From: a virus | Reading direction: 5' to 3' (one strand) | Length of the DNA stretch: 25,038 bases | IMG/VR virus record: IMGVR_UViG_3300042293_000761 | Location: 1 to 25,038 of that record | Translations under genes and position numbers: made by a program | Notes under the pieces: model-generated | What the model was told of the DNA's origin: nothing | Seen by the model: the letters and a program-made list of their open reading frames with translations, nothing else | Databases searched by the model: none | Shown here: positions 7,044-12,873 of the stretch, piece by piece | How the letters are laid out: every line of letters starts with the position of its first letter | Numbering within the stretch: position 1 is the stretch's first letter

Positions 7044-9086
7044 ATGGAAGCTGATTTTAGTGGCTATGCCACCAAAGCAGGTCTCAAGTGCTCTGACGGT
7101 CGGACAATTATGCCCGATGCGTTTAAGCATATGGACGGACTAACTGTACCACTAGTATGGCAACACAGCCACAATGAACCAACTAACGTTCTTGGCCACG
7201 CTGTACTTGAAGCACGTACTGATGGCGTTTATGCGCATGGTTTTTTTAATTCTACGCCAACGGCAGAGAATGCAAAAGCTCTCGTGCAACATAACGACAT
7301 TGTTTCTTTGTCAATCTATGCTAACCAACTTGTTGAGAAGAGCAAGAATGTGCTTCACGGAGTGATTCGAGAAGTTAGTCTTGTGTTGTCTGGAGCAAAT
7401 CCAGGAGCCCTTATTGACAATGTAAGTATTCGTCACTCAGATGGAGACATTGAAGATCTTGAAGACGAAGCCATTATTTATACTGGTTTGTCTCTCGAGC
7501 ACCAAGCTGGAACGACAAGTTCAAACGCACCAGAAGGCAAAACCGTTCAAGAAATTTACGATGGCTTTACGCAAGAACAAAAAGACGTCGTTTATTTCAT
7601 GGTTGGCGCAGCCGTAGAAGCAAGTGGTAACACAATGCAACAATCCGGTCTTGATTCAGATGAAACTGTTGTCACGGATGAAGCAGTGTCTGAAGAAATT
7701 GTTACAGAAACCCCCGCAAACGAGGATGAGTCTATCGAGAACGATTCCTTGCCAGTAGCACCTACAGAGAACGTTACAGAAGACGTTCTTGAACATCAGA
7801 AAGGTACACAGATGAGCCACAATGTTTTCGAGCAGGCTGGAAGCTCCTCACAGCAGGACCGTCCAAGTTTGACTCACGCGCAACTATCTACTATTGTTGA
7901 AGATGCGCAAAAGCTTGGATCTTTTAAGGAATCGTTTCTTGCTCACGCCGTAGAGTATGGCATCGAGAACATCGATTACCTTTTCCCCGACGCAAAGACC
8001 ATCGACGGATCTCCGGAGTGGGTTGCACGACGGATGGAATGGGTTAGTGTTGTTATTAACGGCGCTAAGAAGAACCCGTTCTCACGTATCAAGACCATGT
8101 CTGCTGACATCACGCTTGATGATGCACGTGCAAAGGGATATGTTAAGGGAAGCCTGAAGAAGGATGAATGGTTTGCTTTGTCGAAGCGAGTCACGACTCC
8201 GACGACCATCTACAAGAAGCAGAAGTTGGACCGTGACGACATTGTCGACATTACTGATCTTGACGTTGTTGCTTGGTTGAAGGCCGAAATGCGAATCATG
8301 CTTGACGAGGAACTTGCTCGTGCCGCACTGGTTGGCGATGGTCGTGAGATTGACGATGAGGACAAGGTAAACGAGACCAACATTCGTCCAATTGCTTTTG
8401 ACGACGATTTCTACACGCACAAGGTAACCGTTGCAAACGGTACTGTTGGCGATGGAATTGTTGACGCAATTGTAAACGCTCGTCCCGCATACCGCGGGCT
8501 GGGCAACCCTACCATGTTCACGACGGAAGCTTTGCTCACCTCGTTGCTGTTGGTTAAGGACACCACTGGTCGTCGTATTTACCCAACTACGTCTGATTTG
8601 GCCGCCGCTTTGCGTGTATCTAACATTGTTACAGTTCCCGTAATGGAAGGTGTCCAAACTAACACTGGAGACCTCCTTTGCGTGCTTGTTAACATGAGCG
8701 ACTACACGTTTGGCGCCGACCGCGGTGGAAACATCTCGATGTTTGATGACTTTGACATCGATTACAACCAGTACAAGTACTTGATTGAGACCCGTGTATC
8801 TGGTACTCTCACCAAGTTCAAGACAGCTATTGCTGTTTCTCGTGGAACCGCTGGTAGTTTGGTTACACCTGGCATCCCAACGTTTGTTACTTCAACTGGT
8901 GTCTTGACTATTCCGTCAACGTCTCATGTCATCTACAAGAATGGTGTTACCGGAACGACCTTTACTGCTGGAGCACAAACTGCAATTGCTGCCGGCGCAA
9001 CCGTCACTGTGGAAGCTACGCCAGCTGCTGGCTACTACTTCCCGCACAACTTTGACGCTGACTGGTCATTTACTCGTACTGCCTAA
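7044..9086 (+). CDS. Prohead protease fused to HK97-fold major capsid protein
   Basis: This single 680-residue frame has three parts. Residues 1 to about 134 are an HK97-type prohead serine protease (S78/U35-like), with the likely catalytic His41 in VWQHSHNEP and Ser88 or Ser90 in DIVSLSIYAN. Residues about 135-256 are acidic and low in complexity (EDLEDEAI, ESIENDSLPV), as expected of a scaffolding delta domain. Residues 257 to about 605 are the HK97-fold capsid (EWVARRMEWVSVVINGAKKN, RVTTPTTIYKKQKLDRDDI). Residues about 612-680 form an extra beta-rich domain shared with tail tube protein 1. The start has GAAAGGAG (7027-7034). Self-cleavage near residue 256 is expected; an internal start there (separate entry) may supply most of the capsid. 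Confidence 0.9.
   Translation: MEADFSGYATKAGLKCSDGRTIMPDAFKHMDGLTVPLVWQHSHNEPTNVLGHAVLEARTDGVYAHGFFNSTPTAENAKALVQHNDIVSLSIYANQLVEKSKNVLHGVIREVSLVLSGANPGALIDNVSIRHSDGDIEDLEDEAIIYTGLSLEHQAGTTSSNAPEGKTVQEIYDGFTQEQKDVVYFMVGAAVEASGNTMQQSGLDSDETVVTDEAVSEEIVTETPANEDESIENDSLPVAPTENVTEDVLEHQKGTQMSHNVFEQAGSSSQQDRPSLTHAQLSTIVEDAQKLGSFKESFLAHAVEYGIENIDYLFPDAKTIDGSPEWVARRMEWVSVVINGAKKNPFSRIKTMSADITLDDARAKGYVKGSLKKDEWFALSKRVTTPTTIYKKQKLDRDDIVDITDLDVVAWLKAEMRIMLDEELARAALVGDGREIDDEDKVNETNIRPIAFDDDFYTHKVTVANGTVGDGIVDAIVNARPAYRGLGNPTMFTTEALLTSLLLVKDTTGRRIYPTTSDLAAALRVSNIVTVPVMEGVQTNTGDLLCVLVNMSDYTFGADRGGNISMFDDFDIDYNQYKYLIETRVSGTLTKFKTAIAVSRGTAGSLVTPGIPTFVTSTGVLTIPSTSHVIYKNGVTGTTFTAGAQTAIAAGATVTVEATPAAGYYFPHNFDADWSFTRTA
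7798..7804 (+). promoter_or_regulatory. Internal ribosome-binding site for the capsid protein
   Basis: AGAAAGG lies inside the protease-capsid frame, seven bases before an in-frame ATG (7812). The same GAAAGG core precedes many starts in this window (3493, 7044, 9733, 11197, 17843, 22381). Lysine codon use switches to AAG only from exactly this ATG onward, which supports real initiation here. Confidence 0.6.
7812..9086 (+). CDS. Major capsid protein from internal start (nested, 424 residues)
   Basis: In-frame initiation at Met257 of the fusion would give MSHNVFEQAGSSSQQ onward, a complete 424-residue HK97-fold capsid subunit without protease or scaffold. Three observations support it: the ribosome-binding site AGAAAGG at 7798-7804, the domain boundary at this point, and codon use. 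All 22 lysines from here on are AAG, whereas the protease part has 5 AAA and 4 AAG. Exclusive AAG is seen elsewhere only in tail tube protein 1, as expected for the most abundant proteins. The fusion would then be a minor product bringing protease into the prohead. The alternative is that capsid arises only by proteolysis of the fusion. Confidence 0.6.
   Translation: MSHNVFEQAGSSSQQDRPSLTHAQLSTIVEDAQKLGSFKESFLAHAVEYGIENIDYLFPDAKTIDGSPEWVARRMEWVSVVINGAKKNPFSRIKTMSADITLDDARAKGYVKGSLKKDEWFALSKRVTTPTTIYKKQKLDRDDIVDITDLDVVAWLKAEMRIMLDEELARAALVGDGREIDDEDKVNETNIRPIAFDDDFYTHKVTVANGTVGDGIVDAIVNARPAYRGLGNPTMFTTEALLTSLLLVKDTTGRRIYPTTSDLAAALRVSNIVTVPVMEGVQTNTGDLLCVLVNMSDYTFGADRGGNISMFDDFDIDYNQYKYLIETRVSGTLTKFKTAIAVSRGTAGSLVTPGIPTFVTSTGVLTIPSTSHVIYKNGVTGTTFTAGAQTAIAAGATVTVEATPAAGYYFPHNFDADWSFTRTA
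8877..9083 (+). repeat. C-terminal decoration-like domain, copy 1 (capsid)
   Basis: This segment encodes fusion residues 612-680, opening PTFVTSTGVLTIPST and closing DADWSFTRTA. The same pattern ends tail tube protein 1 (10405-10614): PTFVSSTGVITIPAV and DDDWSFTRTT. The DNA has diverged but the protein pattern and length (69 against 70 residues) are kept. It looks like an Ig-like or beta-sandwich surface domain. Confidence 0.8.
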
Positions 9087-9098
9087 TTAAGGAATATA

Positions 9099-9422
9099 AT
9101 GGCGAAGTTTTATGGTAAGGTCGGTTATGGAGAAACTGTTGAATCTGCCCCTGGTGTATGGGAAGACACCATTGTTGAGTATTATTACTATGGAGACGTG
9201 GTAAAAAATAGTCGTAAGTTGCAAGATTCAGAGTATTTAAATAGCGATCTTACAGTAGGTAATTCTATAAGTATTGTTGCTGATGCCTATGCCAATGAAC
9301 ACTTCTTTGCCATGCGTTATATTCAGTGGGCGGGGACTTTGTGGGTTGTTTCAGATATTGAAGTGCAAAGTCCCCGTCTACTCCTTCGTTTGGGAGGTGT
9401 TTATAATGGCCCCAGACCCTAG
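9099..9422 (+). CDS. Head-to-tail stopper / head closure-like neck protein
   Basis: The 107-residue protein starts MAKFYGKVGYGETVESAPG and contains EYYYYGDVVKNSRKLQ, then SIVADAYANEHFFAMRYIQW and a beta-rich end (SPRLLLRLGGVYNGPRP). This matches a small conserved neck protein (DUF7253-like, as I recall it) encoded right after the capsid in many Gram-positive siphophages. Position and beta content fit a head-closure ring that retains DNA after packaging. The start has TAAGGA (9087-9092). Its last 17 bases overlap the next gene in another frame. Confidence 0.75.
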   Translation: MAKFYGKVGYGETVESAPGVWEDTIVEYYYYGDVVKNSRKLQDSEYLNSDLTVGNSISIVADAYANEHFFAMRYIQWAGTLWVVSDIEVQSPRLLLRLGGVYNGPRP

Positions 9423-9720
9423 GCGGCTTGAGTTGCAAACTTTATTAGAATCTAAACTGACAACTGATAAAGTATATTTTCAGCCACCAAGTAACGTGCA
9501 AATGGAGTATCCTTGCATTGTTTATAATTTAGATAATTATAACACAAAGTATGCAAGCAATAAACTATACAATTACAAAAAACGTTACTCAGTCACAGTT
9601 ATTGATAGAAATCCAGATAGTAATGTACCCGATAAAATTTTACAGTTATCTTTATGCTCTTTTAATCGAGCATTTATAAAAGACGGGTTAAATCATACAG
9701 TTTTTACACTTTTCTTCTAG
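9406..9720 (+). CDS. Tail terminator-like neck protein
   Basis: ATG 9406 has GGGAGGTG (9392-9399) upstream and gives 104 residues beginning MAPDPRRLELQTLLESKL; longer in-frame versions from earlier Met codons lie inside the stopper gene and lack such a site. The pattern VYFQPPSNVQMEYPCIVYNL, then KRYSVTVIDRNPDSNVPDKI and NHTVFTLFF, matches a small alpha/beta family encoded between stopper and tail tube genes. Proteins at this place cap the head-proximal end of the tail tube, as lambda gpU does. The last residues (TLFF) end just before the tail tube ribosome-binding site. Confidence 0.75.
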   Translation: MAPDPRRLELQTLLESKLTTDKVYFQPPSNVQMEYPCIVYNLDNYNTKYASNKLYNYKKRYSVTVIDRNPDSNVPDKILQLSLCSFNRAFIKDGLNHTVFTLFF

Positions 9721-9732
9721 AAAGGAAGAATT

Positions 9733-10617
9733 ATGGCTACGCTTTTATGGGACCAAACGTCGGAACGTAAGTTTGAAAACGGCATCGACCGTGGGGTTCT
9801 TTATATTCCAACTTCTGGCGTTTATAGCGTTGGATATGCTTGGAATGGACTTACAACGGTTACGGAATCTCCTTCAGGAGCAGAACAAACACCTTTGTAC
9901 GCAGATAACATTAAGTACTTGAACTTGGTGTCCACCGAAGAGTTTGGTGGAACTATTGAGGCTTACACTTATCCGCAACAATTTGAACAATGCGATGGTA
10001 CGGCAAGCCCGCAAAACGGTGTTAGTGTTGGACAACAAACTCGTAGTAGTTTTGGTCTTTCTTACCGTACACGCATTGGTAATGACGTTACAGAGGAAGC
10101 CGGTTACAAGTTGCACTTGGTTTACGGTGCAAAGGCCATGCCGAGCGAAAAGGCTTATGCCACAATCAACGATTCTCCTGAGGCTTTGACTTTCAGCTGG
10201 GAATTTATGACTACGGCGGTAGATGTCACAGGCTTGAAGCGTACCTCATTGCTAACAATTGACTCGACCAAGGTTACATCAGGCAACCTTTCTACACTTG
10301 AGGATGCTCTGTACGGTACGGCTGGTACAACCGCACGTTTGCCGTTGCCTGACGAAGTAATCACAATGTTTGCTGGCGCACAAACCGCGGTTACGCCAAC
10401 GTCGCCAACATTTGTTAGTTCTACAGGAGTTATTACAATTCCTGCAGTTACCGGTGTTACGTACCGTCGCGCAGACACCAACGCTATTGTTGTTGCCGGC
10501 GCTATGGCTGCTATTCCGTCCCTCAGTACACTTATTATTCGCGCAACTCCATCGACTGGCGCATACAAGTTTACTGCTGGATCTGACGACGACTGGTCGT
10601 TCACTCGCACCACTTAA
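9733..10617 (+). CDS. Major tail tube protein 1
   Basis: The 294-residue protein follows GAAAGGAAG (9720-9728). Residues 1 to about 215 are a tail tube fold of the Gram-positive siphophage type (TSERKFENGIDRGVLYIP, SSFGLSYRTRIGNDV, GYKLHLVYGAKAMPSE). Residues 225-294 add the same beta-rich domain that ends the capsid protein. All eight lysines are AAG, as in the capsid, which suggests very high expression and marks this as the main tube subunit. A second tube paralog lies at 11197-12009. The extra domain probably decorates the outside of the tail. Confidence 0.85.
   Translation: MATLLWDQTSERKFENGIDRGVLYIPTSGVYSVGYAWNGLTTVTESPSGAEQTPLYADNIKYLNLVSTEEFGGTIEAYTYPQQFEQCDGTASPQNGVSVGQQTRSSFGLSYRTRIGNDVTEEAGYKLHLVYGAKAMPSEKAYATINDSPEALTFSWEFMTTAVDVTGLKRTSLLTIDSTKVTSGNLSTLEDALYGTAGTTARLPLPDEVITMFAGAQTAVTPTSPTFVSSTGVITIPAVTGVTYRRADTNAIVVAGAMAAIPSLSTLIIRATPSTGAYKFTAGSDDDWSFTRTT
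10405..10614 (+). repeat. C-terminal decoration-like domain, copy 2 (tail tube 1)
   Basis: This segment encodes tube protein residues 225-294, PTFVSSTGVITIPAV through DDDWSFTRTT. It is the partner of the domain ending the capsid protein (8877-9083). The ends are the most conserved (PTFVxSTGVxTIP and DWSFTRT), and the middle keeps AGA, TAI-like and VxATP motifs. Synonymous sites differ widely, so the copying is old or the copies came separately from a mobile domain pool. Confidence 0.8.
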
Positions 10618-11196: not shown

Positions 11197-12009
11197 ATGG
11201 CTATTGTGTGGGACGTTGACACGGAAAAAACATACGAGACTGGAGTTGATCGGGGCGTTCTTTATTTAACCGACGGAACCGCAGTTCCATGGAACGGAAT
11301 CACAAGTGTCGTTGAAGATCTATCTAGCAAAACACGTTCTCCTTATTATTTAGATGGAGTTAAGTATTTAGACACACAACAAGTTGGAGAGTATAACGGA
11401 ACATTAAACGCTTATACTTATCCCGATGAAGTTTATAGACTTGAAGGTCTAACTGAATTAACGCAAGGCTACTTTGCCGAAAATCAAAAACGAGAATCTT
11501 TTAGTTTATCTTATAGAACTAAAATTGGTAACGGTGTGAATGAGACTGGTAATGGTCATTATAAATTACATTTATTGTATAACTTAAACGCCATCCCCTC
11601 TAACAAAACCTTTGCCAGCACAACCAATATTGGAACGCCCAGCACTTTTGCATGGGATTTAACTGGAATTCCAGTTGCCGTGCCTTACGGGACGCCAACA
11701 AACCATATAATTTTAGATTCACGAAAAATTGATTCGGTTACGCTGACCTATATTGAACTCTGGTTATATTATGGCGGGACCACACCGTCCGGCGCAACCT
11801 CCGCAGTTCCATTTATGCCATCGCCAGAAGATGTATACGAAATCATTAACCAATCACTTGAGCCTTCTCTTATAATTACAGATAATGGAGATGGATCATT
11901 TACGGCTACAGGTGAAGCGGTAACCTATGTAGATTCTACAACCTATACAATTAATAGTAACACGGTAACTGTTATTGATGCAAACTCATATACAATTTCT
12001 AGCCCTTAA
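11197..12009 (+). CDS. Second tail tube protein (paralog of tail tube 1)
   Basis: The first 200 or so of 270 residues align by eye with tail tube 1: TEKTYETGVDRGVLYL, SVVEDLSSKTRSPYYLDGVKYL, FSLSYRTKIGNGVNE, YKLHLLYNLNAIPSNK. The C-terminus differs, with LIITDNGDGSFTATGEAVTY, an Ig-like or beta-sandwich pattern seen on other phage tail proteins. Seven of eight lysines are AAA against none in tube 1, which suggests low expression. It could be a minor tube subunit, a tail-tip or tail-end ring, or an alternative tube. GAAAGGAGAAC lies directly upstream. Confidence 0.8.
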   Translation: MAIVWDVDTEKTYETGVDRGVLYLTDGTAVPWNGITSVVEDLSSKTRSPYYLDGVKYLDTQQVGEYNGTLNAYTYPDEVYRLEGLTELTQGYFAENQKRESFSLSYRTKIGNGVNETGNGHYKLHLLYNLNAIPSNKTFASTTNIGTPSTFAWDLTGIPVAVPYGTPTNHIILDSRKIDSVTLTYIELWLYYGGTTPSGATSAVPFMPSPEDVYEIINQSLEPSLIITDNGDGSFTATGEAVTYVDSTTYTINSNTVTVIDANSYTISSP

Positions 12010-12024: not shown

Positions 12025-12873
12025 ATGCGACTTAGTTTAGGAGAATCTCAAAGACCTTTGACGCCAATGGTTTTTATATTTACACAAAGTTTAACATTTA
12101 CACCACAAAATTACATTGACATGGGGTATTTGTATTACGATGTGATGTGTATTGGAGCCTCTGGCGGCTATGGCGGAACCGTTGGGTCAGTTAATCCTGG
12201 ATACGGAGGAGTTATTGCCGCAGGAGGAGCCCCTGGTGGTGGAGGCTCACACCTTATCAGAAATCGAGTTTTGAGCGAACTACCAAGCTCTGTCCCTGTG
12301 GTTGTTGGAACAGCTGGCGCTGCCGGCACAAGTGCCGGAACCTCTCCGACTGTTTACACCGCAGCAACTAATGGCGGAACTGGTGGATACTCCTCATTTA
12401 ACACAAACACATGCAAAGCTTCTGGAGGGCTTGGCGGTAAGAAAGCAATCACGAATGGCGCTGGATCAGTAACTACATTTGGATACGGTGGAGCCGGAGG
12501 AAAAGGCAATCAAACGACTGGCGGCGGAGGTTTAGTTCCAGCATCCCGCACGGCGTTGTTTAACGGCTCGTGGGATGGATCAATTGGTACTGGAGGATCT
12601 GGAGGAGCGGGTGGAGCTGCCTATTGGGGTAATGGTGTAATTATTGGCATACCGTCACCTGGAGCTTATGGCGCCTACCCATCTGAGAATTCCGCAGCAC
12701 AAAGTCGAAAGCCTCCGTTTTCAGATTTAATAGTCGACTCAGTTAATGCTACCGGAGGTGGCGGCGCAAAACCTTATACCTTAACCGCAGCTACAAAAGT
12801 TTATGGAACAGCAGGTATTACTTCTGCAACGTCATCTCCAAACGGTGTTGTCGTTTTGCGTCTATACACATAA
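12025..12873 (+). CDS. Glycine-rich adhesin-like tail protein
   Basis: The 282-residue protein has a short N-terminus with aromatic residues (VFIFTQSLTFTPQNYIDMGYLYY), followed by a central and C-terminal region dominated by glycine (AAGGAPGGGGSH, GGTGGYSS, GGAGGKGNQTTGGGG, TGGSGGAGGAAYW). Glycine-rich sandwiches like this form receptor-binding tips in some phage adhesins, such as T-even gp38, and in glycine-rich fibre domains. There is no signal peptide. Its place between tail tube 2 and the gp10-like gene is unusual for an adhesin; it may be a side fibre or decoration on the tail. GGAGGTG (12014-12020) sets the start. Confidence 0.7.
   Translation: MRLSLGESQRPLTPMVFIFTQSLTFTPQNYIDMGYLYYDVMCIGASGGYGGTVGSVNPGYGGVIAAGGAPGGGGSHLIRNRVLSELPSSVPVVVGTAGAAGTSAGTSPTVYTAATNGGTGGYSSFNTNTCKASGGLGGKKAITNGAGSVTTFGYGGAGGKGNQTTGGGGLVPASRTALFNGSWDGSIGTGGSGGAGGAAYWGNGVIIGIPSPGAYGAYPSENSAAQSRKPPFSDLIVDSVNATGGGGAKPYTLTAATKVYGTAGITSATSSPNGVVVLRLYT

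Follow-up and report, generated by a model that had tools for sequence, protein, structure and literature searches.

Two genes of a viral DNA stretch of 25,038 nt (IMGVR_UViG_3300042293_000761, positions 1–25,038; hereafter the window) encode a major capsid protein and a tail tube protein that end in similar segments, raising the question of whether one domain is carried on both head and tail of a phage and what it does there. The C-terminal domain common to the capsid–protease fusion and tail tube protein 1 is named D here. The preliminary description held that the two proteins share such a domain, and the analysis bears this out: D is all-beta, and its copies on the two major virion proteins are homologous. 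A literature search, with subscription papers mostly beyond its reach, found no account of D shared by capsid and tube.

Carrier proteins and genomic context

One carrier of D joins a prohead protease to an HK97-type capsid protein; the other is a tail tube protein (Table 1). The fusion matches the Pfam families Peptidase_S78 (PF04586) and Phage_capsid (PF05065) as well as TIGR01554, all above cut-off. Structure searches with the full-length model of tube protein 1 (pLDDT 84) retrieve solved tail tube proteins at E-values of 4e-4 to 1e-2 and a probability of about 1. The order portal, fusion, small connector genes, tube 1, tube 2 and tape measure is common to cultured actinophages and the window. 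Tube paralogue 2 of the window lacks D by profile, and its C-terminus is unrelated to D.

Table 1. Coordinates of the carrier genes, the two copies of D and associated features; positions refer to the window unless a contig is named.
Feature	Position	Strand	Details
Prohead protease–HK97-type major capsid protein fusion (carrier 1)	7044..9086	+	680 aa; phrog_3270, E 3e-228
Separately translated capsid protein (probable)	7812..9086	+	internal ATG; SD-like AGAAAGG upstream
Domain D, capsid copy	8862..9083	+	fusion residues 607–680; 37/74 identical to tail copy; pLDDT 97.4
Tail tube protein 1 (carrier 2)	9733..10617	+	294 aa; phrog_2645, E 1e-108; model resembles solved tubes
Domain D, tail copy	10390..10614	+	tube 1 residues 220–294; alignment and profile matches; strands in full-length model
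Tail tube paralogue 2, without D	11197..12009	+	phrog_2645, E 7e-67; different C-terminal segment
Tandem-D protein	L207:4701-5444, L220:2181-2924, L221:4992-5738, L222:2134-2880		248–249 aa

Homology of the two copies

Local alignment of capsid D with tail D yields 37 identities in 74 columns (50% identity) and a score of 175, against a mean of 33 and a maximum of 62 in 1000 domain shuffles; full-length shuffles peaked at 68. Additionally, class profiles built separately from 68 capsid and 46 tail sequences match each other with a probability of 99.8% and an E-value of 1.3e-29, so that the profile comparison proposed in the preliminary description links both segments. Chance similarity is rejected by the shuffles together with this profile match. 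The residue ranges reported earlier, 612–680 of the fusion and 225–294 of the tube protein, are exact, with the PTFV codon at 8877 and the last codon at 10612–10614; the homology itself begins five residues before PTFV, at VTP (8862 in the capsid gene and 10390 in the tail gene). In both carriers D occupies the extreme C-terminus after a short linker. A search of the window record in all six frames recovers two D copies only, with none on any other protein. The whole genome of phage Annihilus likewise holds no significant copy beyond the two carriers, and a plasmid search returned no match.

Fold and family affiliation

The capsid copy is modelled as five strands without a helix. The tail copy, modelled solely within full-length tube protein 1, forms strands at residues 226–291. 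Among viral models, capsid D is matched best by the major tail protein from Arthrobacter phage Qui (TMq 0.80, 1.5 Å; probability 1.00, E 2.6e-3), a phage whose tube protein 1 carries D by profile. The superposition foreseen in the preliminary description is thus obtained between capsid D and a relative's tail protein rather than the window's own tail copy.

A PDB fold search with capsid D gave no significant match, the nearest structures being mostly Ig or FN3 (E at least 0.35, TMq up to 0.47), and a PDB sequence search gave nothing relevant. The window proteins match none of the Big_1, Big_2, I-set and FN3 families at E up to 1; one isolated Big_6 match (E 0.014) occurs among the 68 capsid D domains, and none of the 68 capsid or 46 tail members matches a carbohydrate-binding family above cut-off. 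The sole Pfam family matched by many D copies is PF18998 (Flg_new_2, a divergent InlB B-repeat); these matches are weak (at E up to 0.1, 29 of the 68 capsid members and 21 of the 46 tail members), and just part of the PF18998 model aligns with D. The window's capsid D scores 19.0–19.3 bits, below the gathering cut-off of 23.6, and its tail D has no match to this family; the tandem-D protein of contig L222, described below, passes the cut-off (36.2 vs 23.6 bits).

Distribution and modularity of D

D is present on both proteins in all nine cultured phages examined (hosts Streptomyces, Arthrobacter, Gordonia and Microbacterium), a rate biased by the choice of these phages from matches to D or to the fusion; tube 2 of the nine carries no D. 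The distribution count covers 131 non-redundant loci in which neither gene is cut off at the 3' end. Both proteins bear D in 63 of these and neither does in 51; D is confined to the capsid in 14 and to the tube in 3. The loci with D on neither protein come mostly from assemblies of bacterial genomes, by their titles chiefly gut Firmicutes. On the capsid-core tree, gain and loss of D amount to at least 6 changes on the capsid and at least 15 on the tube. The association of capsid D with tube D is strong in the raw counts (Fisher p 6e-5, bacterial-genome loci left out). Correlated gain and loss was rejected as a separate signal, being inseparable from phylogeny, and independent co-selection of the two copies is not established because the tree offers just 5 independent informative pairs.

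Where tube protein 1 lacks D, the protein either just stops or bears another domain. Specifically, tube protein 1 of contig L222 (L222:5581-6576) has a Big_5 Ig domain at the position of D (Pfam E 3e-14). An extension of ~113 residues stands in D's place in tube protein 1 of L222, L035, L037, L072, L153, L169 and L208; in the latter six it resembles the Big_5 domain of L222 by eye only.

Four contigs moreover encode a tandem-D protein (Table 1) in which ~100 N-terminal residues are followed by two D domains, each with an E-value below 1e-16. Its gene adjoins the portal gene and is seen directly before the fusion where the contig allows, and the fusions of two of these contigs (L207 and L222) lack D. 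The tandem-D protein is a candidate free decoration protein, which connects fused domains with free decoration proteins inside one family. Since D may be absent, replaced by Big_5 or free as the tandem-D protein, it is a separable module, and the modularity implied by the earlier proposal of a mobile domain is supported.

Age and selection

For every one of the 77 capsid copies of D, and for 65 of the 66 tube copies, the nearest neighbour in other genomes sits on the same kind of carrier. A single capsid-D clade is not rejected (AU p 0.36), with 70 columns resolving few branches, and similarity within genomes is slightly higher than between them (0.43 vs 0.40, permutation p 0.0004). Because D clusters by carrier and not by phage, the sharing is old, with passage between the genes early and once or a few times. 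D would have been duplicated or transferred between the capsid and tube genes at that stage, after which each copy appears to have stayed and evolved with its own carrier.

Codons differ at 22 of the 37 residues identical between the two window copies. The preliminary description took such synonymous differences as a sign that the domain is kept by selection; the differences show paralogue age only, whereas dN/dS values below 1 do favour the claim. Median pairwise values among close relatives are 0.36 for D on the capsid against 0.17 for the capsid core, and 0.18 for D on the tube against 0.11 for the tube core, figures to be read as indications since the pairs overlap. Both copies thus appear to be under purifying selection, looser than that on the carrier cores.

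Comparison with known virion domains

What Ig-like domains do for phages, in which they are common, is still a matter of debate; in this phage one related module occurs on head and tail. On tube proteins, C-terminal Ig-like domains stick out from the tube, and phages can often do without them; removal of the lambda domain lowers activity ~100-fold, and weak carbohydrate binding by such domains is proposed and unproven (PMC8718954, PMC9022992). Capsid Ig-like domains likewise project outward and are often dispensable; the phi29 capsid protein bears one, and Hoc, pb10 and proteins like them are believed to help attachment (PMC11476376, PMC7602432).

Like the Ig-like domains of lambda gpV, T5 pb6 and YSD1 and the FN3 domain of SPP1 gp17.1*, D is a small all-beta domain that forms the C-terminus of a tube protein, is accessory and varies from one relative to another (PMC9022992, PMC8718954), and its slot can hold Big_5. 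Unlike them, D matches no Ig class by sequence and no Ig structure significantly, and the same phage has a homologous copy on its capsid protein. The Ig-like domain of the phi29 major capsid protein is, like D, an all-beta accessory on an HK97-fold capsid protein, and it structurally resembles the C-terminal domain of T5 pb6 (PMC11476376). That likeness is structural and lies between phages, whereas D shows 50% sequence identity between two proteins of one phage. A further parallel is provided by the frameshifted Ig-like C-terminal extensions on major virion proteins of Lactobacillus phage A2 and Listeria phages PSA, A118 and A500, which in the Listeria phages occur, as D does, on both the coat and the tail protein of one phage (PMC5009743). 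Unlike these extensions, D is in frame in both genes and is therefore on every full-length subunit.

Proposed role of D

Owing to its position, modularity and looser selection, D fits a display role best. On balance, it is regarded as a modular surface domain of ~70 residues on the C-termini of capsid and tube protein 1, most likely projecting outward, and one surface module probably covers the whole particle, head and tail. Hundreds of copies would lie external on the virion and act like other virion Ig-like domains, through contacts with the host surface (probably with carbohydrate) that are weak and multivalent; these would keep virions near cells. Both exposure and a function in binding sugars or in stabilisation are inferences for D, and mucus binding, entertained earlier, finds no support here. 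A bolder and tentative extension holds that D represents a new all-beta family, distinct from the known Ig-like classes, serving as a whole-virion coat for multivalent attachment to the host envelope, with D fused in frame to all capsid and tube 1 subunits and the tandem-D protein used instead in some relatives. The pairing is conserved in cultured phages of four host genera, so its purpose is testable in laboratory phages.

The main rival to a display role, judged unlikely, is a stabilising clamp in which D does the work of a cement protein, bridging capsomers on the head and the next subunit or ring on the tail. Such a clamp would agree with the lack of a recognised separate decoration gene between the fusion and tube 1, and the Ig-like domains of phi29 (PMC7602432) and lambda (PMC8718954) touch their neighbours to some extent. 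However, D is missing from one or both proteins in close relatives and is hence not required for assembly, two unrelated lattices would need to fit one sequence family, and D is under less constraint than the carrier cores.

Far less probable is a tag for folding, solubility or chaperone recognition that acts only before or during assembly on the two most abundant virion proteins. The terminal location of D in both proteins and its repeated absence in relatives would suit such a tag, whereas a free protein with two D domains and replacement by Big_5 are not expected of one; many positions are also conserved in both D classes, though many of these may be core. A recent functionless copy within the genome, to which the slight within-genome excess in similarity could point, is rejected as barely credible, being contradicted by grouping by carrier rather than genome, by a pairing that spans phages of four host genera and by dN/dS well below 1.

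Probable internal start in the fusion and neighbouring segments

Within the capsid–protease fusion, the window carries AGAAAGG followed by an ATG at 7812 (MSHNVFEQ; window 7790–7814). Among the 115 relatives in which the motif was found, an SD-like sequence precedes the aligned methionine in 114; the figure for the remaining internal ATGs is 35%. Third-position GC is higher downstream of the methionine in 110 of 115. In the window itself, GC3 rises from 0.34 before the internal ATG to 0.53 after it. These features of the coding sequence suggest that the start at 7812 is conserved and that the capsid protein is probably made apart from the fusion; by virtue of this start, the capsid protein, D included, may be in excess over the protease fusion.

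Downstream, the end of tube paralogue 2 (window 11800–12006) holds another recurrent segment (DNGDGTWTAEGP... in relatives), which many contigs carry on their second and third tube paralogues. A glycine-rich protein encoded between tube 2 and the tape measure region (12025–12873) scores near the Pfam Gly_rich_2 cut-off (22.6 vs 24.3 bits) and is possibly a tail adhesin.
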